From Candidatus Poseidoniaceae archaeon (GTDB lineage: Archaea > Thermoplasmatota > Poseidoniia > Poseidoniales > Poseidoniaceae), in contig JANXHP010000138.1 in assembly GCA_024958795.1 (NCBI GenBank), forward strand, positions 1 through 39,069: 39,069 nt of DNA, read 5' to 3'. Position 1 is the first letter of the stretch. Every line of letters begins with the position of its first letter. Made by a program: the position numbers and the translations under genes. The notes under the pieces were generated by a model, which ran no database searches, was not told where the DNA came from, and was given only the letters and a program-made list of their open reading frames with translations. Shown in pieces: positions 4,006-33,622 of this stretch.

Positions 4006-5289
4006 TCAATAGTTGCGATATCTATCCAAAACAGTCCAGCCCATCACAACAAAAATTATACTAAAAATAGTTAAAAATGCAAAGTTCAAAAACCCTCTAC
4101 CATCCTCTATAGAGCCCTGCACTGTAAGGTCAATAGTCATTACTTCAAATGCACTATTATCGTCCATTCCATGCATAAAAATCATACCTCCTTCATATTC
4201 GGCTACTTCTATTTCTATTGGAATTGGCTTTGCGAATTCCTTTATGTCAATAATTCCATCATCAAAACTAGCAATCGATGTTGTATCCTTTTGTCCAATA
4301 AACCATGTTTTCCCATCAGAATCAGTAACTGCAGATTGTGATGGAAGGTCAAGATAATTGATTGAACCATCACTTTTAATTTGATATGCACCCGTATTTG
4401 CAGCGACTATTACTTGTGAATTACCTGTTGAGAATGTATTGTGTATTTGACCTTCTTCACCTGTTGTAAGTGATATCAAAACAGGTGATACGGAGAGGTT
4501 TCCTTGCCATTCAATAATACCTATTGTTGTACGCACATTAGGGCTTGCAGGGCTACCACCAGAACTTTGAGTATTTGCTATAGTGCCTGTTGCCACCCAT
4601 TTGTCTTGCGATAGATGAACGATGTTATCCCAATTAACTGAATTAGAATTTACCATTGGTGGGGAAGCGACGTAATATGATAATGCTCTAATCGTTGAGG
4701 TTCCATCATCTTCTTGAGTGACGATCATAGCAGAATTAGGGCCTCCGTTTTCTTGATAATCATCGATCATAAACTCATCAGAAGTATTGACATTGATGTA
4801 TGCTATTTGTTCATTGAGAGTTATTTCAACCAGTTGGTTGCTAGCGATTGACAACATAGCTCTATCATCGCTCATTTCATTCATGAAACGGATTTCATCA
4901 CCTTTGTCATATTCGGATGGCTGATAAATCATATCAAGTGAATCACTAGTATCCTGGCTGTAAAGAAAATGACCCTGACCTGGAATATACATATGAGTTA
5001 ATTGGCTGGAAACACTGCCTTCATTGTCAAAATAAACTATGTCAAGTACTCGATTACCATCATGGCCCGCATCACCAGCGCCTAAATCAACGCCAGTCAA
5101 AGTACTGGTTCCTTCAATAACGACTCCACCGATGAAGGCAAATATGAAAAAAAGGCCAATTGCAAGCCATTGGTGCTCACTTTCCTCTTCCAGCAACTTG
5201 CGCCAGCGACCTGCCATAGTTGCTTGGCAGGGTTGGGGGCAAAAGAAGGCTTTCATAGAAGTATTAGTTTTGACTCTATTATGCAACAT
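4006..5289 (-). CDS. Membrane-anchored, mostly extracytoplasmic protein of unknown function (propeller-like)
   Basis: I do not recognise a named family. The 427 aa comprise a short N-terminal region with two cysteines (FFCPQPCQ) and a basic stretch, one membrane helix near residues 41-60 (LAIGLFFIFAFIGGVVI), about 330 residues rich in beta-strand, Asp, Ser and Thr, and a second membrane helix near the end (FAFLTIFSIIFVVMGWTVL) followed by RYRNY. The topology suggests both ends in the cytoplasm and a large outside domain. Repeating short strands separated by turns resemble a beta-propeller, but no repeat motif is firm. The start at 5289 is preceded by GGTGA. An alternative ATG at residue 25 (MAGRWRKLL) would remove the cysteine-containing leader. 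It is divergent from the L10e gene. Confidence 0.7.
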   Translation of the reverse strand: MLHNRVKTNTSMKAFFCPQPCQATMAGRWRKLLEEESEHQWLAIGLFFIFAFIGGVVIEGTSTLTGVDLGAGDAGHDGNRVLDIVYFDNEGSVSSQLTHMYIPGQGHFLYSQDTSDSLDMIYQPSEYDKGDEIRFMNEMSDDRAMLSIASNQLVEITLNEQIAYINVNTSDEFMIDDYQENGGPNSAMIVTQEDDGTSTIRALSYYVASPPMVNSNSVNWDNIVHLSQDKWVATGTIANTQSSGGSPASPNVRTTIGIIEWQGNLSVSPVLISLTTGEEGQIHNTFSTGNSQVIVAANTGAYQIKSDGSINYLDLPSQSAVTDSDGKTWFIGQKDTTSIASFDDGIIDIKEFAKPIPIEIEVAEYEGGMIFMHGMDDNSAFEVMTIDLTVQGSIEDGRGFLNFAFLTIFSIIFVVMGWTVLDRYRNY

Positions 5290-6015: not shown

Positions 6016-7794
6016 GTGCGAGTAGCAGTTTTGAGAGAAGACAGTTGTCAACCAAAGAAATGTAATGATGAATGCCATGCATTCTGTCCTCCTGTAAGAA
6101 ATGGACAAGAATGCATCATTATGGATGACCGTTCAGGTAAACCAATTATTTCTGAGAGTTTGTGCATTGGATGTGGAATATGTATCAATAAGTGTCCGCA
6201 TGATGCCTTGATCATTGAGAACTTACCTAGTGAATTAGAGCAGGATATGATACATCGATATTCAATGAATGGATTCCGATTGTTTAGATTGCCCACACCG
6301 AGTAAGGAAAGTGTGGTAGGAATACTTGGACCAAATGGAATGGGTAAGTCAACTGCAATCAATGCACTTTCTGGACGATTGATTCCAAATTTGGGAGAAT
6401 GGTTGGATAAAGAATGCAACTGGGATGGAATTATTGAGACTTTACCGAGAGGTGAATTGAGAGATTTCTTTATTTCAGTTCGGGAAGGAAAAATAAAAGT
6501 TGCATTAAAGCCCCAAAACATTGACCGTTTACCAAAGAGGATTCAAGGAACTGTACGTGATTTATTGAGTAAAGTTGATGAAAGAAAAATGTTTGATGAG
6601 ATGACTACAGAATTAGGTATTTCACATCTTCTTGACCGAACAGTACAACAATTGTCTGGTGGTGAATTACAAAGAATGGCTATATGCGCAACACTTTTGC
6701 GTGATGTTGATGTTTATTTCTTTGATGAGCCATCGTCTTACTTAGATATCCACGAACGTATGAGAATTGTAAAAATTATTCAAAAGTTAGCAGAGAGTAA
6801 ACGAGTTCTGGTAATAGAGCACGATTTAGCAGTACTCGATGTCTTAGCGGATTTGATTCACATCGTATATGGAAAGAAAGGTGCATTTGGAATATTTACT
6901 CCAGCTCGTTCAACTCGGCAAGCGATAAACACCTATCTGGATGGATTTTTACCAGAACAAAATGTCCGCATTCGTGATAAGCCGATTAAATTCAAAAACC
7001 ATCATTCTAATTCTGCTGAACTTGGTAGTCAAGTAATCAGTTGGGGCGGCTTAGAAAAGAAATTAGGTGATTTTAAGTTAGAAACTGGAGAAGGAGCAGT
7101 CCATAGAAGCGAAGTTGTTGGAGTAGTCGGTCCTAATGGAACTGGTAAATCTACAATGATCAAAATTCTTGCAAGAGAGTATGAATATGATGCCGGATGG
7201 GTCAGTAGTGATTGCAGTATTTCTTACAAACCTCAGCATATTGATGTCGATATGGACTGTACAGTTCAAATTTGGTTGGATAGTGAGATTGGTCCACGTT
7301 GGAGAAGTGGTGAATACCATAGCAATGTGATAAAAGCATTAGGAATTGATGAATTGTTGCCTAAGCGTGTCAAGAAGTTGTCCGGTGGAGAAAGGCAAGC
7401 GGTTTCAATTGCGATATGTCTTGGTCGAGAGGCTGATTTGTACTTGTTAGATGAGCCAAGCGCTCATTTAGATGCCAATGCCAGGATGGAGGCTGCAAAG
7501 GCGATAAGAAGGACAATGGAAGCAAATGAGAAGTCTGCATTCGTGATTGACCACGATGTTTACTTTATCGATATCTTAGCTGATTCTCTCTTAGTGTTTG
7601 AAGGAGAAGGTGGAAAAGTAGGAAAAGCCGAAGGTCCTTTCCCATTGAAAGAAGGAATGAATCGTTTCCTTTCAGGAGTCAATATCACTTTCCGTCGTGA
7701 CCATGATTCTAAACGTCCGCGAATCAATAAGTCTGAATCAAGGAAAGATAGAGAACAACGTCAGGCCGGTGATTTCTATTCATATCATTCCTGA
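6016..7794 (+). CDS. rli1: Ribosome recycling ATPase ABCE1 (Rli1)
   Basis: ABCE1 splits ribosomes into subunits after termination and carries two [4Fe-4S] clusters. The N-terminal iron-sulfur domain shows cysteine-rich DSCQPKKCNDEC and a second ferredoxin-like set, CIGCGICINKCP. NBD1 has Walker A GPNGMGKST, signature LSGGELQR, Walker B FFDEPSSYLD and IEHD. NBD2 has GPNGTGKST, LSGGERQ, LLDEPSAHLD and IDHD. At 592 aa it is full length. The start is GTG at 6016, preceded by AAGGGAGGTGAG, an excellent ribosome binding site; the nearby ATG at 6014 is out of frame. The 106-base gap after L10e and the short gap to the downstream nuclease suggest one transcription unit. Confidence 0.98.
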   Translation: MRVAVLREDSCQPKKCNDECHAFCPPVRNGQECIIMDDRSGKPIISESLCIGCGICINKCPHDALIIENLPSELEQDMIHRYSMNGFRLFRLPTPSKESVVGILGPNGMGKSTAINALSGRLIPNLGEWLDKECNWDGIIETLPRGELRDFFISVREGKIKVALKPQNIDRLPKRIQGTVRDLLSKVDERKMFDEMTTELGISHLLDRTVQQLSGGELQRMAICATLLRDVDVYFFDEPSSYLDIHERMRIVKIIQKLAESKRVLVIEHDLAVLDVLADLIHIVYGKKGAFGIFTPARSTRQAINTYLDGFLPEQNVRIRDKPIKFKNHHSNSAELGSQVISWGGLEKKLGDFKLETGEGAVHRSEVVGVVGPNGTGKSTMIKILAREYEYDAGWVSSDCSISYKPQHIDVDMDCTVQIWLDSEIGPRWRSGEYHSNVIKALGIDELLPKRVKKLSGGERQAVSIAICLGREADLYLLDEPSAHLDANARMEAAKAIRRTMEANEKSAFVIDHDVYFIDILADSLLVFEGEGGKVGKAEGPFPLKEGMNRFLSGVNITFRRDHDSKRPRINKSESRKDREQRQAGDFYSYHS

Positions 7795-7833: not shown

Positions 7834-9594
7834 ATGCCCGTAAGCACACCTCCTCTTGGTGGACCTCTAGGGCGTTCCCGTTCCCGTCTTTCTGCAAGTG
7901 CATTAACTTCGTTTTTACGTTGCGATAGGCAATGGTTCTTGGGAAATAAAGTCGGAATACGAGGTCCATTAAACCCACCACAAGTTCTTGGTATTGTCTT
8001 GGAAGATGCACTTTGTTCCATATTGATGCAAAGGCCTGTAGGAATTGATTCAATAGAAGAATTAAAGCAATGGGCAAATGGATTCATCGAAGAGTCCGTA
8101 GCCACAGTATTATCCGAAGGTGGAAAGTTATGGGATCAAGGCATTTGGCGTGTAGATGAAAATTGGGACGATGTTGATGTTGACAGAGTAAGAAGAAGAA
8201 TCAACGGTGGATTGGAATTGTTTTTTGAAGAAGTTGAGGCTTGTCATTCAGCCAATGGCGGCCCTTATCTTGAGTTATTTCGTAGTGGTCAGCAACCTTT
8301 CGCAGTACCGGCACCATCTTGGGGCGATGAACCAGTATTTCCTTTACCGGATAAAGTTCCAAGTCTTGATATTAGAAAATGGTCGAATGGTGTTGATGCA
8401 GATTGGAGAAGCAAAGGAAGCCCAGTTTCATGGTCAGAGGCTTGGGAAATTGCTCGTCCTTGGGTAAAAGACCCGAGAGTGCACCAACCACAGAGAATGT
8501 TCCATCCTGATGGCTGGGCTGCTGGTGAATTAGATTTAGTCTTAAGATGGGACGGTAGGATTCGCTTAGTAGATATCAAATCAGGAGATCCGACATCAAG
8601 GTTTGCAGCATCGCTTCAACATCAATTAGGATTCTATAGTTGGCTTTGGTATGAAACGCATGATAATCAAACAGTGGACGGAATGGAAGGTTGGTATCTA
8701 GATGGTCCTCAACGAGTTGAATTCGAGGCGCTTAAGGCTGAAAATTTACAGGTTATGACGGATGTATTCAAGGGAGTACATGAAAAGATGCAAACGATGG
8801 GTTCAGGTCCTGCAAAACTACCAGTTCCTCTCGAAGAAGCGTGTGATGGAGAATCAGCAGGTTGCCATTGGTGCAGTTTGGCAATTGATGGCAAGCATTT
8901 GGTCAATGATGAATTACTAAAATCAATTTATGATGGTCAAGAAATTGTTATGTCAAGACCTAGTGAAAAATTGCAGCAAATTCCTGAAAGAGTTAGTGTA
9001 ACTGGGAAGTTTACTGGTGCATGGGGGCCATTACCAAATCATTTCGGCGAACCTGTATTGGGTGCGATGTTGGTGGCAGGTAAAACTCAGATTACTATCG
9101 AGGAAAGCCAACCAGGTTCATTCCCAACATTGCATCAGTGTCCTCAAGGAGAAATTGTTATTCTCGATGCACTTCCAGGTGTTTGGAGAGGTCAAGCAAG
9201 ATTGTATGTTGACAAAAACACTAGAATCATTAGCAAACAAGATGCAGAACAAGAGTTTAATGATCTTAATCAAAAACTGACGCGAATTGGTTTGTTGAGA
9301 ACTAGAGCAAATGTAGAGGGTGTCATTCTATGCATCGCAAAACGAGTTGGAAAAAGATTGGATGGAAAACCATGGGCCATGCTCTCAATGCACCTGTGGG
9401 ATGGAGAGCATGTCGTTGAAGTTGCGGCTTTTGGCTCTAGCATTTCTGGTGCGATGGAAGAGACAATACCAGGGGATTCATTGAAACTTACTGGGGCTGA
9501 AATTGGTTGGAGAAATGGATTGCCACAGTTGCGAATAGATATTCGTTCAACTAGACTTTCTTTCAATAGAAAAGAGAGGGTTTTAGAGGGTTGA
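7834..9594 (+). CDS. Cas4/AddB-type PD-(D/E)XK iron-sulfur nuclease with C-terminal OB-like domain (A)
   Basis: This 586-aa protein is a predicted DNA exonuclease of the RecB/Cas4 superfamily. Visible catalytic residues are D234 (in GELDLVLRWDG), D247 and K249 (VDIKSG), and Q264xxxY268 (QLGFYSW). Cys30 in the N-terminal FLRCDRQWF segment, together with C337, C344 and C347, can form the iron-sulfur pin known from Cas4 and AddB. The C-terminal spacing is CX6CX2C rather than the usual CX2CX5C. After residue 370 the chain is beta-rich, and the last 100 residues look like an OB fold (ANVEGVILCIAKR to the end), suggesting single-stranded DNA binding. No helicase domain is present. ATG at 7834 follows GGTGA. 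A homologous gene follows after 16 bases. Exact function is unknown; a repair or recombination role is inferred. Confidence 0.8.
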   Translation: MPVSTPPLGGPLGRSRSRLSASALTSFLRCDRQWFLGNKVGIRGPLNPPQVLGIVLEDALCSILMQRPVGIDSIEELKQWANGFIEESVATVLSEGGKLWDQGIWRVDENWDDVDVDRVRRRINGGLELFFEEVEACHSANGGPYLELFRSGQQPFAVPAPSWGDEPVFPLPDKVPSLDIRKWSNGVDADWRSKGSPVSWSEAWEIARPWVKDPRVHQPQRMFHPDGWAAGELDLVLRWDGRIRLVDIKSGDPTSRFAASLQHQLGFYSWLWYETHDNQTVDGMEGWYLDGPQRVEFEALKAENLQVMTDVFKGVHEKMQTMGSGPAKLPVPLEEACDGESAGCHWCSLAIDGKHLVNDELLKSIYDGQEIVMSRPSEKLQQIPERVSVTGKFTGAWGPLPNHFGEPVLGAMLVAGKTQITIEESQPGSFPTLHQCPQGEIVILDALPGVWRGQARLYVDKNTRIISKQDAEQEFNDLNQKLTRIGLLRTRANVEGVILCIAKRVGKRLDGKPWAMLSMHLWDGEHVVEVAAFGSSISGAMEETIPGDSLKLTGAEIGWRNGLPQLRIDIRSTRLSFNRKERVLEG

Positions 9595-9605
9595 ATGAAA
9601 CCCTC
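9586..9605 (+). promoter_or_regulatory. Hairpin at the junction of the two nuclease genes
   Basis: GAGGGTT and AACCCTC form a perfect 7-bp stem around a six-base loop. The stem includes the stop of the first nuclease and ends five bases before the ATG (9611) of the second. In mRNA it would sit where the ribosome binding site of the second gene should be, and no other Shine-Dalgarno is evident there. Ribosomes finishing the first gene would open it, so translational coupling is a reasonable inference. Confidence 0.45.
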
Positions 9606-9610
9606 ATCGT

Positions 9611-11446
9611 ATGCCGGTGCATATTGCGAGCGAAGAGGATTCAATTGGACCGTATAATCGCTTATCTGCAAGTCAGGTAAATTCTTACAACAATTGTTCA
9701 CGTCTATGGTTTTATGAAAAAATACGCCGCTTTAGAATGCCGCAAATACCCGTATTATTCGTAGGTAGAGCTGTTGAAGATGCTGTTTGCAAAATGCTGC
9801 GTGAGTCACCAGGATTAATGGTCTCAACTGCGGATTCAAAAATATTAGAATCAACACCATTGGATAAAAACGGCCTACCAAGTAGAGAAGGTGGAGACTG
9901 GCCGGCATCAAAATTGCTAGCATTGCCATCTAATATGCATCCAACAACTATTGATGGATTAAAGGAATGGGGGCGAAGTCGATTAGATATTCACTTGCCA
10001 TTGTCATTAGAGGCGATGAAGAAAGAATGGGAGAAGGATGAAAGGAAAGCAGGAGATTGGTCTACTGTTAATACGCAGTATTGTCTTGAAATGTGCTATA
10101 CTGCATTAGACATGCATCTTGTAGAATTACAACGTTGCATTGAATCTAATGGAGGGCCTAATCTTGAAAGTTGGAGAGAAGGAAATAGAGAGTATTGGCC
10201 TGCTCCAGATGGTCGCGCTTTTGAGTTGGTAAACAGTCATCCACTTGCTAGTAAGGACTCCTTTACTCATGTTGAGGCTTGGGAGGTTTGCCGCCCATGG
10301 TTCGTTGATCCAGGTGCAGAAAAATTCACTATGAACTCTATTCATCCAGAGCATTGGTTCCAAGGTGAGTATGATTTAGTATATCGATGGGATGGTAAAA
10401 TAAAAATTGTAGACTTGAAAGCAAGTGTTGGTAAAGGCGACCGTTCAGGAAATTACGTAGACCAACTTCGAATGTATGCTATGTTATGGTGGACTACTCA
10501 TGGAAAAGATGAGACTGTAGATTCTCTTGAAATTTGGTACTTAGGTGCTAATGTTGTTAAGGAAATTGAATTACCTACACTAACTGAATTACAAGAAATG
10601 GAAGCCGAATTAGAGCAGATGTGGAAAGTTCTCAAAGAGAATAAGCCAGAAATTGACCAATGTCCTCCAAATCCAGCCCCTATGCGTGGATTCGCTGAAG
10701 GTGGTAAAGCAATTGCAGCTCCAGATGAATCTCGCTGCGATAGTTGTGATTGGGAACAGATTTGTCCGGGTGGTTCAGGGAACGATGATTTGCCAAGTGC
10801 TGGAATTGTTAATTTACCAGGTTCAACATCAAGTTTTGATATTACAGAAATCGCCCAATTGAATCCTAGAGCAACAATCATTGCAGAGGTATTTTCTGTT
10901 GTTGGAGCCAATACAAAACCAGTTCCGCAAATCACAATTTGTCAAGGAACAAATTTTGCAAAAATACAAATTATTTCAGAAACGCATGAATCCGGTCAGA
11001 AAAGTTGGCCACAAGGGATAAAGAAAGGTGATTCTGTCAAATTAGATGGAGTTGTTTTCACAATAAATTGGAAGGGTGAAATTATTCTCAAAGTTGATCC
11101 TCATGCAATGATTATCCCAGCATCTCCAAGCGAAGAATGTACTACTGATTTAATGTCATATAGAGCAAAATATCATGTTGCAGGAAGAGTGATTTATCGT
11201 TTTGAAAAGCGTGGTATTGGTCGTACTGGCAAGGAATGGCATAGAAAGGGAATGATGATCCAAGATTCTACTGGAGCAATGAAAGTAGGTGGATGGGCTA
11301 ACGACTGGGGACCTCAATATGATACGGTAAATATTGGAGATACAGTAGTGGTAGCCAATATTGGAATAGATGCATGGGCAACTGAAGTACGTGGTGAGAT
11401 TTCCCGAAATTCTACTTTCCAAACTATTGATAGAATTACTAGATGA
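9611..11446 (+). CDS. Cas4/AddB-type PD-(D/E)XK iron-sulfur nuclease with C-terminal OB-like domain (B)
   Basis: This 611-aa protein is a paralogue of the preceding gene with the same layout. It starts with a YNRLSASQVNSYNNCSRLWF segment containing Cys29. The nuclease core has D255 (QGEYDLVYRWDG), D268 and K270 (IVDLKAS) and Q285xxxY289 (DQLRMYAMLWW). Cysteines C376, C379 and C385 (CDSCDWEQICPGG) give the canonical CX2CX5C pin. Two beta-rich modules follow; the last (residues about 515-611, YHVAGRVIYRFEKRG onwards) resembles an OB fold. All catalytic and cluster residues are intact. Similarity in both halves to gene A indicates duplication followed by divergence, perhaps giving a two-subunit nuclease. 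It is not a CRISPR Cas4: no cas genes or array are present and the protein is about three times the length of Cas4. Confidence 0.8.
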   Translation: MPVHIASEEDSIGPYNRLSASQVNSYNNCSRLWFYEKIRRFRMPQIPVLFVGRAVEDAVCKMLRESPGLMVSTADSKILESTPLDKNGLPSREGGDWPASKLLALPSNMHPTTIDGLKEWGRSRLDIHLPLSLEAMKKEWEKDERKAGDWSTVNTQYCLEMCYTALDMHLVELQRCIESNGGPNLESWREGNREYWPAPDGRAFELVNSHPLASKDSFTHVEAWEVCRPWFVDPGAEKFTMNSIHPEHWFQGEYDLVYRWDGKIKIVDLKASVGKGDRSGNYVDQLRMYAMLWWTTHGKDETVDSLEIWYLGANVVKEIELPTLTELQEMEAELEQMWKVLKENKPEIDQCPPNPAPMRGFAEGGKAIAAPDESRCDSCDWEQICPGGSGNDDLPSAGIVNLPGSTSSFDITEIAQLNPRATIIAEVFSVVGANTKPVPQITICQGTNFAKIQIISETHESGQKSWPQGIKKGDSVKLDGVVFTINWKGEIILKVDPHAMIIPASPSEECTTDLMSYRAKYHVAGRVIYRFEKRGIGRTGKEWHRKGMMIQDSTGAMKVGGWANDWGPQYDTVNIGDTVVVANIGIDAWATEVRGEISRNSTFQTIDRITR

Positions 11447-11833: not shown

Positions 11834-12589
11834 TCAATTGTAGAATGCATCTGCTGAATCGGTTAATTCTGCAATAACATTCTGCGCTTTTTCAGGTGCC
11901 ATACTCTGTAATTTTGCTAATAGATTTGCAGAGGTATCACTTGGTAGGGAAAGTCCCAACTCAAACCAAGTATCAATATTGTCAAGCAGTCTTTGACTTG
12001 CCATGACATCTCCACTAGCACCCACAGTTGTTGCTATTGCTAAGCAAGAATTTATTTCATAAAGAGGCCCACTGCTAGCCAACAATGCAGTTAATCCGAT
12101 TGCTCCAGAACTTGGTTCATCTCTTCGTACATCTACTCCTTTTGATTCTAATTCAATTCTATGAGAGGCATTACTTGCAACAATGAAAGTTTCTTTTCTT
12201 GATGGTTCGCTTCCCAAGCCAGCCATTACAACCATTTCACTAACACCTTGTTGCATAAAGAATTGCATTATCTCATTCGCCAACATCCCTTGACTATTTG
12301 GGTCAACAGGTTGTGTTGAACCAGTTAAGGTTAGGATTATCTTGCCAGTGGTTGATTCTATAGAGGAAATGGTGTAGTGAGGTGGTGCTAGTAATCCATC
12401 TTCATCAAGACATGCTAATGGTGGCAATGAAGTATCATGGAGTCTAGCAATTTGTGTTGCTCCATTTACTGAATTAACAGCATCGATAGCAGCCTTGCCT
12501 ACATTGCCTACTCCAGGGAATGCAATTAGCATTAGACTATGCTCGGGGAGAACGGTATTGTCATTTCTCCATTCAACAGTTAGAACCAT
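11834..12589 (-). CDS. PAC2-family protein (proteasome assembly chaperone-like)
   Basis: The 251 aa match the archaeal PAC2/COG1938-type family. The N-terminal half carries LMLIAFPGVGNVGKAAIDAV, followed by a Rossmann-like region with LTGSTQPVDPNSQG and VVMAGLGSEPSRK. Eukaryotic PAC2 helps assemble the 20S proteasome alpha ring; the archaeal role is not firmly known. It is the last gene of the L44e-S27e-aIF2alpha-Nop10 cluster, its usual archaeal location, about 100 bases after nop10. The length is typical. Confidence 0.88.
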   Translation of the reverse strand: MVLTVEWRNDNTVLPEHSLMLIAFPGVGNVGKAAIDAVNSVNGATQIARLHDTSLPPLACLDEDGLLAPPHYTISSIESTTGKIILTLTGSTQPVDPNSQGMLANEIMQFFMQQGVSEMVVMAGLGSEPSRKETFIVASNASHRIELESKGVDVRRDEPSSGAIGLTALLASSGPLYEINSCLAIATTVGASGDVMASQRLLDNIDTWFELGLSLPSDTSANLLAKLQSMAPEKAQNVIAELTDSADAFYN

Positions 12590-12691
12590 GTTTCGCCAAT
12601 CCTAACGCGACGCGTTATAATGTTTGACATTGATTCAAACCGCAGCAACCCATTTGTTGAGTCAATATTAGTGGCCGATTGAAGAAAAAAA

Positions 12692-12943
12692 TTATTCTTC
12701 TTCATCAGGGGCTCTCATTTCTGCAGTTTCACGCATTTCTTCAAGAGTTGGTAGAGTTGGAAGTCCTTGTGGCCAAGAAGCATCTTCAACATTGTACATC
12801 TTTCTGCGAATATCAGCGCGATGATCTTCTGGTGACCACTTAAGAGGTGCAGCAGCTTGTGCATTTTTTCCACAAGATGGACAGGTAGTTGACAATGACC
12901 ATGCACTGCAATCTAAGCATTGTTGAAGGATTTGACGAGCCAT
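12692..12943 (-). CDS. nop10: H/ACA ribonucleoprotein subunit Nop10
   Basis: Nop10 is a small zinc-binding scaffold of the H/ACA RNP, which pseudouridylates rRNA with Cbf5, Gar1 and L7Ae. The protein has CLDCSAWSLSTTCPSCG, two CX2C pairs as in archaeal Nop10, followed by the conserved segment LKWSPEDHRADIRRKMY (family: PxxFSPxDxYxxYR). At 83 aa it is longer than the usual ~60 because of an acidic C-terminal extension ending APDEEE. It starts four bases after the stop of aIF2alpha, confirming the operon and the identification. Confidence 0.93.
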   Translation of the reverse strand: MARQILQQCLDCSAWSLSTTCPSCGKNAQAAAPLKWSPEDHRADIRRKMYNVEDASWPQGLPTLPTLEEMRETAEMRAPDEEE

Positions 12944-12947
12944 AATA

Positions 12948-13739
12948 TCACTCTCTCCAAGCTCTTGCTTCTCCGCCTGCCTTTTCCATCATTTCAATAG
13001 CAGCATTTGTTGCAGAATTCCATGCAGACTCTGCACTCTTGAAATCAGGTGCCTTCAATTCAATTCTATATTGAGGAGCACCGTTATAGTGGCATGAGAT
13101 TTCGATTTCATCCTTTTCAGAAGAGAACTTTTCTGCAGCCAATAGAGAATTACGGATTACTTCAATTCCATTTACTGAGTTGATACTCAATGATATCGTT
13201 CCTCGAACTTCAACGAAGTCAGGTATGATATTTTCAATTGCAACTTCAATAAATTCTTTGATCCAATCTCCTTCAAATCCAGCATCTACTACTGCCCCTT
13301 CCTTCATTGCAGCCTCTTCAAAAGATCCATATAGAGTTCCAAAGGCTCCGGTTAGTTCTTCAGCAGTTTCAGTAACTTCTTCTTCTGACCAACCAACCTT
13401 TTCACCAATTACCTTTAGCAATTGATGAGCTCTCTTTTCATTCTTCCATTCTTGTAAACGAGCACGTCGTCTCTCTTCTGAAACAGATTTTAGAGATAGT
13501 TCTAGAGATGTACCATCCTTACGGGTACGCATTACCTTACAGATTAGTCTTTGACCTTCTCTAACAAAACCGCGAATATTCTTAACCCAGCCACTGGCAA
13601 TTTCACCAATAAAAATGAAACCTTCAGTTCCTTCAAATTCATCAAATTCAACATAACATCCGTTTTGTTTAACGGTTTTTACAGTTACAACGACTAACTC
13701 CCCTTCTTGAGGGCCGCCAGTGTTTTGTCCTTTGCTCAT
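12948..13739 (-). CDS. eif2a: Translation initiation factor aIF2, alpha subunit
   Basis: aIF2 is the heterotrimer that brings initiator tRNA to the small subunit; alpha helps stabilise tRNA binding by gamma. The 263 aa show an N-terminal S1 (OB) domain: GELVVVTVKTVKQNGCYVEF, then GFIFIGEIASGWVKNIRGFV and GQRLICKVMR. A helical middle domain (WKNEKRAHQLLKVIGEKVG) and the alpha/beta C-terminal domain ending near MMEKAGGEARAW follow. The length is standard. It lies between S27e and nop10, the conserved archaeal arrangement. Confidence 0.97.
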   Translation of the reverse strand: MSKGQNTGGPQEGELVVVTVKTVKQNGCYVEFDEFEGTEGFIFIGEIASGWVKNIRGFVREGQRLICKVMRTRKDGTSLELSLKSVSEERRRARLQEWKNEKRAHQLLKVIGEKVGWSEEEVTETAEELTGAFGTLYGSFEEAAMKEGAVVDAGFEGDWIKEFIEVAIENIIPDFVEVRGTISLSINSVNGIEVIRNSLLAAEKFSSEKDEIEISCHYNGAPQYRIELKAPDFKSAESAWNSATNAAIEMMEKAGGEARAWRE

Positions 13740-13754
13740 TGGAGGATTTCCCCC

Positions 13755-13925
13755 TCATTCCAGTGTCTCTACCACATTGCAGCCAACTAGGTCGGACTTT
13801 CCACCAGATGGACTGGTTAAGGTTGCGCCACAAACATCACAAGAGATGATAGAAGTGGCACGGGAGAAAATTGTTGATTCATTGCTACAATCGCGGCATG
13901 CGACCTTTAGGAAACTACTTGTCAT
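13755..13925 (-). CDS. rps27e: 30S ribosomal protein S27e
   Basis: This 56-codon gene is too short for the ORF track, which lists only its shadow on the other strand. I translated it directly from the ATG at 13925 (MTSSFLKVACRDC) to the TGA at 13755-13757 (CNVVETLE). It has the zinc ribbon of S27e, with CRDC and CDVC pairs separated by about 16 residues, and the family pattern SCxxCGxxLxxPxGGK. It sits 10 bases after L44e and 15 bases before aIF2alpha on the same strand, exactly as in many archaeal genomes. Confidence 0.95.
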   Translation of the reverse strand: MTSSFLKVACRDCSNESTIFSRATSIISCDVCGATLTSPSGGKSDLVGCNVVETLE

Positions 13926-13935
13926 CTTATTCACC

Positions 13936-14220
13936 TCAGCGATCGATTAATTCGAACTTCTTTGCACGCTTACATGGAGCGTAGTGTGCTTTACCAGTCT
14001 CAGTACAGCGATATAGAATATTAACTCTCTTAGTTGGCTTTTCACGGCCATCAGGCTTTGGACGAGGGAAACCTCTGTATCCAGCCATAACCTTACGGAA
14101 TCGGCGTTGACCCCACTTCAGTTCAGAAGCACGTCGCTTCTTAACACGCTCAACAGTGTGCAGAGTATGCTTACCAGCAGATGGACTGTAACGCATGATT
14201 TGACGTGGCATTTTTACCAT
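13936..14220 (-). CDS. rpl44e: 50S ribosomal protein L44e (eL42)
   Basis: This is an E-site protein of the large subunit. The 94 aa are strongly basic and carry the L44e hallmarks: a MPRQIMRYSPSAGKHT start, HTVERVKKRR, GYRGFPRPKP, and the zinc-site half CTETGKAHYAPCKRAKKFEL. The typical first pair of zinc cysteines near the N-terminus (YCPYC in most homologues) is replaced by MRYSPSAG, so only the C-terminal pair remains. The ORF starts MVKMPRQ; the second Met (14211) matches most homologues. It is the first gene of the L44e-S27e-aIF2alpha-Nop10-PAC2 operon. A TAAATA box lies about 40 bases upstream. Confidence 0.95.
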   Translation of the reverse strand: MVKMPRQIMRYSPSAGKHTLHTVERVKKRRASELKWGQRRFRKVMAGYRGFPRPKPDGREKPTKRVNILYRCTETGKAHYAPCKRAKKFELIDR

Positions 14221-32032: not shown

Positions 32033-33622
32033 ATGCAATGTGGTTCATGCGTTGAAGTCATTCCTGATGACAGTATTTTTTGCCCTGAATGTGGTGCAAG
32101 GCAGGAGATGTCTCATGCAGGAGGATTTACTTCGCATAACGCAGTTGGTCTCAGTGGACAGGATGTTTCTGGTGGCCGTTCTTTTGGTGTAGTTTCCGGT
32201 GAAGCAATTCGTCAACAACGCGATGCACAAATTGGAGCTGCTGCAAATATTCCAACCGATGTAATGCAACAAATTGCACAAGGTATTCAAAATCAACAAA
32301 ATTTCCCACCTGGTACATTCCCACCCCAAGGAATGCCGCAAAATCAGCAATTCCCACCTCAAGGAATGCCACAAAATCAGCAATTCCCACCTCAAGGAAT
32401 GCCGCAAAATCAGCAATTCCCTCCTCAAAATCAACTCCCACAACAAAATTCAGAATTGCCGCCAATGAACAATAATAACATTCCTTCACCAACAGATGGA
32501 CAAAATATTGGCAATGACGCAATGCCAACGATGAATCATGATGAATTAGAAGCAGTTGGCACTATCATTGCCAGTAATCCAAGTAATTCTCCTACCGACC
32601 AGATGGTAAATCGTTTGGCTGAAGCTGAAAGAGCGATGAAGAATGAGCGTCGAAGTCAGTGGCTAAATATGAATCAAACTCCAGCAACAAATGTATTAGC
32701 AAATCTGGGTACAGAATTACCTGCTCATCTGCGTCAAGAACAAGCTAATCCTGCTGCAAATGTAATGGCAGGTGCGATGGGTCAAAGTGCAGTTGAAGGT
32801 CCAAGTGAAGCTTTACTGCGTAGAATTTGTGAAGTTGCAGTAAGAAGAGTTGCAAGAAAGAGAGGTGTTGCAGTTGAAACACCTCAGTCAAGTGCTGATG
32901 GAGATCAGTTGAATGTCACAGTAACCTTTGTTGATGATGGTAGAGTATTGGACACTCCTGAAGATTTGGCACAAGCCTTTGAACATTCAATTCAGACTGA
33001 ATTAGCATTAAAAGGATATGATTTCTCTACAAATTTGAGCCTATTTTGTTCTAAGGAAGGAGAGATTGAGAAACTCATTGGTCAAGCAACTGAAGAAGTT
33101 GAAGAGGAGGAAATGTTTGCCTGTGAAATTTGTGATGGCTTAGTCAAAGAAAGTGATAACGAGTGCCCACATTGTGGTGCAATGTTTGAAGATGAAAATT
33201 CACCTAATACCGGTCCACCAAGTCGTTCCGGCCCACCAGGTCCATCTAAGTCAGGAGGTCCACCGAAGTCGGGCGGTCCACCGAAGTCGGGCGGTCCACC
33301 GGGTCCAAGTCGTGGAAGTCCAGCAAAGTCAGGCGGTCCACCGGGTCCAAGCCGTGGAGGTCCATCAAAGTCAGGCGGTCCACCAGGTCCAAGCCGTGGG
33401 GGTCCATCAAAGTCAGGTGGTCCACCTAAGTCCGGAGGTCCACCAGGTCCATCTAAGTCTGGAGGTCCACCGAAGTCGGGCGGTCCACCGAAGTCAGGCG
33501 GCCCACCAGGTCCATCGAAGTCAAGCGGTCCACCAGGTCCAAGTCGCGGAGGTCCATCAAAGTCAGGCGGTCCACCTAAAGGAGGTCCAAAGGGGCCAAA
33601 GCGTGGCGGTCCTCCTCGTTGA
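32033..33622 (+). CDS. Double zinc-ribbon protein with Gln/Pro repeats and long Gly/Pro/Ser/Lys tail
   Basis: The 529 aa comprise, in order: a zinc ribbon C3-C6-C17-C20 (CGSCVEVIPDDSIFCPEC); a linker; tandem PPQGMPQNQQF repeats from residue 96; an acidic/neutral helical region; a folded module around residues 260-345 (RRICEVAVRRVARKRGV to KGYDFSTNLSLFCS); a second zinc ribbon C364-C367-C378-C381 (CEICDGLVKESDNECPHC); and 136 residues of GGPPKSGGPPGPS-type repeats (394-529) with a strong positive charge. No signal peptide or membrane helix is seen, so the protein is cytosolic. The tail is certainly disordered and might bind RNA or DNA or drive condensation. No family is recognised apart from the zinc ribbons. 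Confidence 0.8.
   Translation: MQCGSCVEVIPDDSIFCPECGARQEMSHAGGFTSHNAVGLSGQDVSGGRSFGVVSGEAIRQQRDAQIGAAANIPTDVMQQIAQGIQNQQNFPPGTFPPQGMPQNQQFPPQGMPQNQQFPPQGMPQNQQFPPQNQLPQQNSELPPMNNNNIPSPTDGQNIGNDAMPTMNHDELEAVGTIIASNPSNSPTDQMVNRLAEAERAMKNERRSQWLNMNQTPATNVLANLGTELPAHLRQEQANPAANVMAGAMGQSAVEGPSEALLRRICEVAVRRVARKRGVAVETPQSSADGDQLNVTVTFVDDGRVLDTPEDLAQAFEHSIQTELALKGYDFSTNLSLFCSKEGEIEKLIGQATEEVEEEEMFACEICDGLVKESDNECPHCGAMFEDENSPNTGPPSRSGPPGPSKSGGPPKSGGPPKSGGPPGPSRGSPAKSGGPPGPSRGGPSKSGGPPGPSRGGPSKSGGPPKSGGPPGPSKSGGPPKSGGPPKSGGPPGPSKSSGPPGPSRGGPSKSGGPPKGGPKGPKRGGPPR
32318..32428 (+). repeat. 33-base coding tandem repeat (PPQGMPQNQQF)
   Basis: Three near-identical 33-base units (32318-32350, 32351-32383, 32384-32416) differ at a few synonymous positions, and a partial fourth follows. 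The length preserves the reading frame. High nucleotide identity implies recent expansion or ongoing homogenisation. Confidence 0.9.
33212..33619 (+). repeat. Coding repeat array GGPPKSGGPPGPS
   Basis: About 400 bases encode irregular alternation of GGPPKS, GGPPGPSK and GGPPGPSRGGPSKS units. GGTCCACCx and AAGTCxGGCGG words recur many times. Composition is far richer in G and C than the surroundings. It forms the tail of the zinc-ribbon protein. Confidence 0.9.

Follow-up and report, generated by a model that had tools for sequence, protein, structure and literature searches.

The window analysed here, the whole stretch of DNA, is a contig of 39,069 nucleotides (nt), about 39 kb, from a Candidatus Poseidoniaceae archaeon (assembly GCA_024958795.1, contig JANXHP010000138.1). 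Near-identical loci occur in metagenome-assembled genomes of Poseidoniales. The window contains two adjacent genes, the open reading frames (ORFs) 7834-9594 and 9611-11446, which we call P1 and P2. Both code for a nuclease half of the PD-(D/E)XK type followed by two oligonucleotide/oligosaccharide-binding (OB) folds. A preliminary description of this DNA had reported two homologous neighbours of 586 and 611 amino acids (aa) lying 40 bases after ABCE1. The coordinates and lengths are confirmed, the two proteins are homologues with about 28% identity, and 39 bases lie between the stop codon of ABCE1 and P1; P1 and P2 are separated by 16 bases. The features of the gene run are the following.

6016..7794, plus strand: ABCE1, the ribosome-recycling ATPase, with a canonical N-terminal iron-sulfur (Fe-S) domain (Pfam ABC_tran, Fer4_RLI, Fer4); first gene of the ABCE1-P1-P2 run
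7834..9594, plus strand: P1, 586 aa, PD-(D/E)XK nuclease with two OB folds like those of replication protein A (RPA) (Pfam, AlphaFold2, Foldseek, family alignment)
7885..8928, plus strand: nuclease domain of P1, about aa 18-365, with C30, E57, D234, D247-x-K249, Q264xxxY268 and then C337-x6-C344-x2-C347 (PDDEXK_1 and conserved columns)
8842..8874, plus strand: non-canonical C-terminal cysteine triplet of P1, CX6CX2C (C337, C344, C347), from sequence comparison with homologues
8992..9567, plus strand: tandem OB folds of P1, about aa 387-467 and 491-578 (AlphaFold2 secondary structure, Foldseek)
9611..11446, plus strand: P2, 611 aa, putative Cas4-type Fe-S PD-(D/E)XK nuclease with two RPA-type OB folds (Pfam, profiles, AlphaFold2, Foldseek, family alignment)
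9650..10780, plus strand: nuclease domain of P2, about aa 14-390, with C29, E56, D255, D268-x-K270, Q285xxxY289 and C376-x2-C379-x5-C385 (PDDEXK_1, aligned with Cas4 4r5q)
10736..10765, plus strand: canonical Cas4/AddB/Dna2 triplet of P2, CX2CX5C (C376, C379, C385), with its N-terminal partner C29 at 9695-9697
10832..11440, plus strand: tandem OB folds of P2, about aa 408-508 and 514-610, RPA type (profile matches)

The nuclease halves are recognized by the Pfam model PDDEXK_1 (PF12705) with 45.9 bits in P1 and 55.5 bits in P2, the cut-off being 22, and the same model scores above its cut-off in all of 20 nuclease halves sampled from both the P1 and the P2 family. The catalytic motifs D, D-x-K and QxxxY are invariant throughout the family alignments, and the intact core proposed for both proteins is thus borne out. 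When each protein was modelled alone with AlphaFold2 the result was an alpha/beta nuclease and then two barrels of five to six strands. The predicted local distance difference test (pLDDT) was 87.2 for P2 and 84.5 for P1, and the predicted template modelling score (pTM) 0.84 and 0.82, respectively. A search of the PDB with the single P2 sequence gave no useful match. By profile alignment the best solved-structure relative of the P2 nuclease half is Cas4 (4r5q); the N-terminal cysteine region matches with E 6e-4, and the C-terminal cysteine region is aligned as CX2CX5C, but this segment scores below zero. In a library of viral structures (Foldseek) the front half of P2 retrieves proteins annotated as PD-(D/E)XK, RecB-type and Cas4-family exonucleases.

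The beta-rich C-termini noted before are two OB folds in each protein, and their RPA nature is a feature which the preliminary description did not contain. A profile of the P2 OB half matches Pyrococcus abyssi RPA (8aa9) with E 4e-6 and also 2k50 (a methanogen RPA-related protein), the Sulfolobus SSB 1o7i and Ta0387 (2k75). With Foldseek both models retrieve RPA70 and other tandem-OB proteins, the P1 model with E 2.2e-7 for P. abyssi RPA (8aaj) and 2.7e-7 for human RPA70 (1jmc). The sequence matches of the P1 OB half to RPA are weak (E 0.05); for this reason the relationship of P1 to RPA is one of predicted fold, while that of P2 is seen in profile and predicted fold alike. Searching 390 genomes of the phylum with the P2 profile gave weak matches outside the order Poseidoniales; those that were located, in 12 genomes, cover the OB region only in all cases, and the two such ORFs inspected are RPA-like multi-OB genes, each followed by a second OB-type gene. 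Since a separate RPA gene is present in 17 of 17 genomes tested, the fusion is an addition to the cell's own RPA and not a replacement for it.

The order consists of two families, here f1 with 10 genera and f2 with 11, the genera being labelled g1 to g21; L-numbers denote the homologous loci compared. The preliminary description placed one N-terminal and three C-terminal cysteines of both proteins as in Cas4/AddB. This holds for P2, whose C29, C376, C379 and C385 are kept in all of 59 homologues, but not for P1 of the window, where the triplet reads C337-x6-C344-x2-C347. Most of f1 has CX4-6CX2C in P1, g6 and g10 have CXCX2C, and the f2 genera that carry P1 (L091, L092, L094, L095) have the canonical CX2CX5C. 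From these variants, canonical in f2 and shifted or lost elsewhere, it appears that the canonical spacing is probably ancestral and that the ligand set drifted in P1. With its canonical, shifted and lost cysteines, the P1 series amounts to a natural experiment that asks if the fold needs the cluster or if the cluster serves regulation alone.

The tally of relatives used a threshold of E 1e-3, and its counts cover either paralogue, since the P1 and P2 profiles each retrieve the other. P1 and/or P2 occur in 178 of 194 Poseidoniales genomes, in all 34 high-quality genomes and in all 21 genera. Full-length relatives were found in none of 7 genomes of the sister group within the class and nowhere in the rest of the phylum; candidate nuclease-only relatives outside the order came up in only four genomes of the phylum, with E 4e-7 or weaker. 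Within the phylum P1 and P2 are therefore restricted to Poseidoniales; beyond it the search was confined to scanning the genome collection for close relatives and running tblastn against phages and plasmids. A maximum-likelihood tree separates P1 from P2 with full support for either group, and because each of the groups contains both families of the order, the duplication is older than the split between f1 and f2. The ratio of nonsynonymous to synonymous substitutions (dN/dS) between P1/P2 of the window and close relatives is about 0.06-0.09, from which it follows that both genes are under purifying selection.

Both genes are found in nine of the ten f1 genera. In f2 the run ABCE1-P1-P2 is present in four genera (g14, g16, g18, g21), and the other seven have P2 alone with its motifs intact. 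As the P2 proteins of these seven form one supported group in the tree, P1 was probably lost once in f2. In the loci examined ABCE1 lies directly 5' of P1 wherever P1 is present, and where both genes occur the order is ABCE1-P1-P2 on one strand, with mostly short gaps and overlaps up to about 110 nt. At ten P2-only loci the genes before P2 are pdxT and a radical SAM gene, and not ABCE1. This gives no support to the link suggested earlier to ABCE1 as another Fe-S protein; the adjacency is no functional necessity, because P2-only genera do without it, and an obligatory coupling to ABCE1 was rejected on the same ground. The opposite loss, with P1 kept behind ABCE1, is seen in the two g9 genomes with the locus and in some genomes of g3 and g4 (G125, G135 and G139 are listed as P1-alone). 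Both g9 genomes have an exonuclease of the RNase_T/DnaQ type in the P2 slot, 14 nt behind a P1 without cluster cysteines.

L146 8619-9458, plus strand: DnaQ/RNase_T-type exonuclease of g9, 279 aa
L097 7056-7895, minus strand: DnaQ/RNase_T-type exonuclease of g9, 279 aa

In g3, g4, g9 and g18, four genera that are unrelated, ABCE1 itself has an altered N-terminal Fe-S domain, with six to seven cysteines spaced in a new way. The rest of these proteins, the ATPase body, follows the genus (e.g., 89% to other g4) and the N-terminal domain alone differs, which would be explained by domain exchange or by convergence. The ABCE1 of L097 has no match to the Pfam model Fer4. Three of the four lineages with the altered domain have also lost P2.

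L157 9737-11557, minus strand: ABCE1 with altered Fe-S domain
L158 1335-3125, plus strand: the same
L097 9739-11505, minus strand: the same
L094 11298-13064, minus strand: the same
L093: the same

It should be added that some metagenome-assembled genomes contain split ORFs, P1 in L038 (4546-6306) and L039 (6225-7984) and ABCE1 in L039 (4399-6176) and L044 (4406-6219), which are probably assembly frameshifts.

Downstream of P2 the genes are convergent: a tRNA-Ser, a PAC2 protein and the LSIN cluster, an arrangement of LSIN genes with a COG2047 companion that is known from euryarchaea (PMC2643942). A terminator-like fold was sought 3' of P2 and none was found.

11834..14220, minus strand: PAC2 protein (COG2047-like), Nop10, aIF2-alpha, S27e and L44e (Pfam; the L44e ORF by its own sequence)

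MutS and MutL are located upstream of the pair on the other strand; we found nothing specific on Poseidoniales MutS/MutL in the part of the literature searched. What stays constant beside the genes across the order is ABCE1, joined in many genera by the LSIN cluster. The scanned ORFs of the window include no helicase, no cas genes and no CRISPR-like array, in agreement with the preliminary description. Between MutS and L10e lies a 427-aa protein (4006-5289, minus strand) without Pfam match, which stays with MutL-MutS in g1 and g8. A 529-aa zinc-ribbon protein (32033-33622, plus strand) has a C-terminal part made up of a long series of GGPPKSGGP-like repeats, and a second repeat, of 33 bases, is found at 32317-32428 inside the same ORF.

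The reading which we favour, and consider rather probable, is that P2, and with less certainty P1, is a helicase-free nuclease for single-stranded DNA (ssDNA) which brings its own ssDNA-loading RPA module and serves in chromosomal repair or replication. For P2 there is good support for a nuclease of the Fe-S type that has no helicase and is joined to an ssDNA-binding module of its own. A Cas4-type nuclease combined with OB folds of the RPA type suggests ssDNA as the substrate. In the mechanism that we infer, as regards substrate, metal cluster, polarity and pathway, the tandem OB folds would bind ssDNA and deliver an end or a flap to the PD-(D/E)XK active site, and a [4Fe-4S] cluster on C29 and C376/C379/C385 of P2 would hold the nuclease fold together, as happens in Cas4, Dna2 and EXO5. 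P2 would in effect be an EXO5- or Dna2-type nuclease with built-in RPA, and its likely task would be trimming the ends or flaps of ssDNA during repair or replication of the chromosome, perhaps including end resection. The DnaQ-type exonuclease found in place of P2 in g9 fits an exonuclease role for P2. P1, its old paralogue, is probably active as an accessory nuclease that lineages with small genomes can do without.

The failure to detect NurA in the order makes a role in end resection possible: the search found it in 0 of 60 Poseidoniales genomes, of which 26 are high-quality, but did find it in further families of the phylum and in a single sister-group genome. The NurA profile (PF09376) does not match P1 or P2. 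A bolder hypothesis would be that Poseidoniales exchanged HerA-NurA resection for the fusion, with capture and polarity provided in cis as an archaeal one-polypeptide counterpart of the eukaryotic Dna2/EXO5-RPA systems, and that the repeated losses of P2, the loss of cysteines in P1 and the remodelled Fe-S domain of ABCE1 all go back to selection in the ocean against Fe-S cofactors; we hold this to be doubtful.

Several observations weigh against the repair nuclease proposed here. P2 is dispensable and was lost several times independently, and no conserved DNA-repair neighbour was found across the order. Where motif I of Cas4 has a histidine, the P1 and P2 families have an invariant glutamate (E57 in P1, E56 in P2), a feature not noticed in the preliminary description. 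The Cas4 cysteine spacing is missing from P1 in most genera, and P1 of g9 has lost all four cysteines, the N-terminal one included, with its active site intact. The negative result for NurA comes from one Pfam model, and this model finds none in many other Thermoplasmatota either, so that the resection role is no more than a lead. The searches for Rad50 and HerA were uninformative: the search for the Rad50 zinc hook missed Haloferax and Methanosarcina in the control, and the HerA model PF01935 gave weak matches, in most f1 genomes and almost nowhere in f2.

A different possibility, put forward in the preliminary description, is that P1 and P2 are the two obligate subunits of one exonuclease, a helicase-free analogue of AddAB/AdnAB. 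The order P1-P2 on one strand with mostly short gaps wherever both are present, the full active site kept in both proteins and the equal age of the two families agree with this. It is weakened because P2 stands alone in 7 of the 21 genera (7 of 11 in f2) with its motifs intact, and because several lineages have kept P1 and lost P2, as in g9 and in G125, G135 and G139. We therefore find it unlikely; what stands of the original proposal is the helicase-free fusion, for P2. As the genes are adjacent behind ABCE1 where both exist, a cooperation between them is possible, but it is not obligatory.

The location between ABCE1 and, in both families, an adjoining LSIN cluster could also mean that the nuclease is directed at RNA, in ribosome rescue or RNA turnover, and OB folds are able to bind RNA. 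This is at variance with the absence of ABCE1 beside P2 in the P2-only genera, the opposite strand of the LSIN cluster, the RPA/SSB type of the OB folds and the DNA-exonuclease annotation of the PD-(D/E)XK relatives retrieved; the DnaQ-type replacement in g9 fits DNA or RNA alike. There is little probability in this explanation, and still less in a solo-Cas4-like or defence nuclease, for which weak matches to Cas4 and DruK profiles and a score of 30 bits with NCBIfam cas4 could be quoted. A core, slowly evolving pair in a fixed housekeeping context is not what a defence nuclease would lead one to expect; no cas genes or arrays were found among the scanned ORFs of the window, and searches of phages, plasmids and viral contigs gave no match. 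A mobile defence gene was rejected on phylogeny and gene context, and a viral origin was rejected as no relatives were confirmed in viral contigs or, by tblastn, in phages and plasmids.

The helicase-free repair nuclease proposed here, with its own RPA module, may finally be compared with known systems. With the Cas4 family and the other PF12705 Fe-S nucleases, solo-Cas4 included, P1 and P2 share the PD-(D/E)XK core and QxxxY, and P2 also the N-terminal cysteine and CX2CX5C; the full Cas4 cysteine set is found in P2 and in the P1 proteins of f2, not in P1 of the window or of g9. They differ from Cas4 in having a nuclease half of about 390 aa followed by two RPA-type OB folds, a glutamate in motif I and no CRISPR context. 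Judged from sequence, P2 would work like a nuclease of the Cas4/EXO5/Dna2 type, yet it should not be filed as Cas4 because motif I differs, the score with the curated Cas4 profile TIGR00372 (30.1 bits) is far below the cut-off of 65, and the CRISPR context is missing. The helicase-nucleases Dna2, AddB and AdnAB have the same type of Fe-S nuclease, with CX2CX5C as in P2, but P1 and P2 lack a helicase domain, and for that reason P2 is neither AddAB nor Dna2; a match of P1 to Dna2 is sub-threshold (Pfam, E 0.25).

Exonuclease VII and RecJ are helicase-independent ssDNA exonucleases with OB folds, but their catalytic folds are unrelated to P1 and P2 and they have no Fe-S cluster. Tandem OB folds are common to archaeal RPA proteins (P. 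abyssi RPA, MacRPA, Sso SSB) and P2, which has only two, placed behind a nuclease; as these genomes keep an RPA gene of their own, P2 is not the RPA of the cell. EXO5 is a helicase-free enzyme with a single [4Fe-4S] nuclease domain; it takes open ssDNA ends, and RPA enforces its 5'-3' polarity (PMC8710748). By analogy EXO5 would be the nearest known mechanism for P2, likewise helicase-free and with a predicted Fe-S cluster, although RPA is a separate partner of EXO5 whereas the RPA folds of P2 are fused in cis; the EXO5 profile of Pfam gave no match in P1 or P2 up to E 1. In the part of the literature searched we found no description of a fusion between a Cas4-type nuclease and RPA. Few archaeal groups of the surface ocean are as abundant as marine group II (Poseidoniales), for which no genetic system is known. 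The core, order-specific fusion is a testable candidate for the processing of ssDNA ends without a recognizable NurA, and it may serve as a model, in one chain, of Fe-S nucleases guided by RPA, Dna2 and EXO5 among them.

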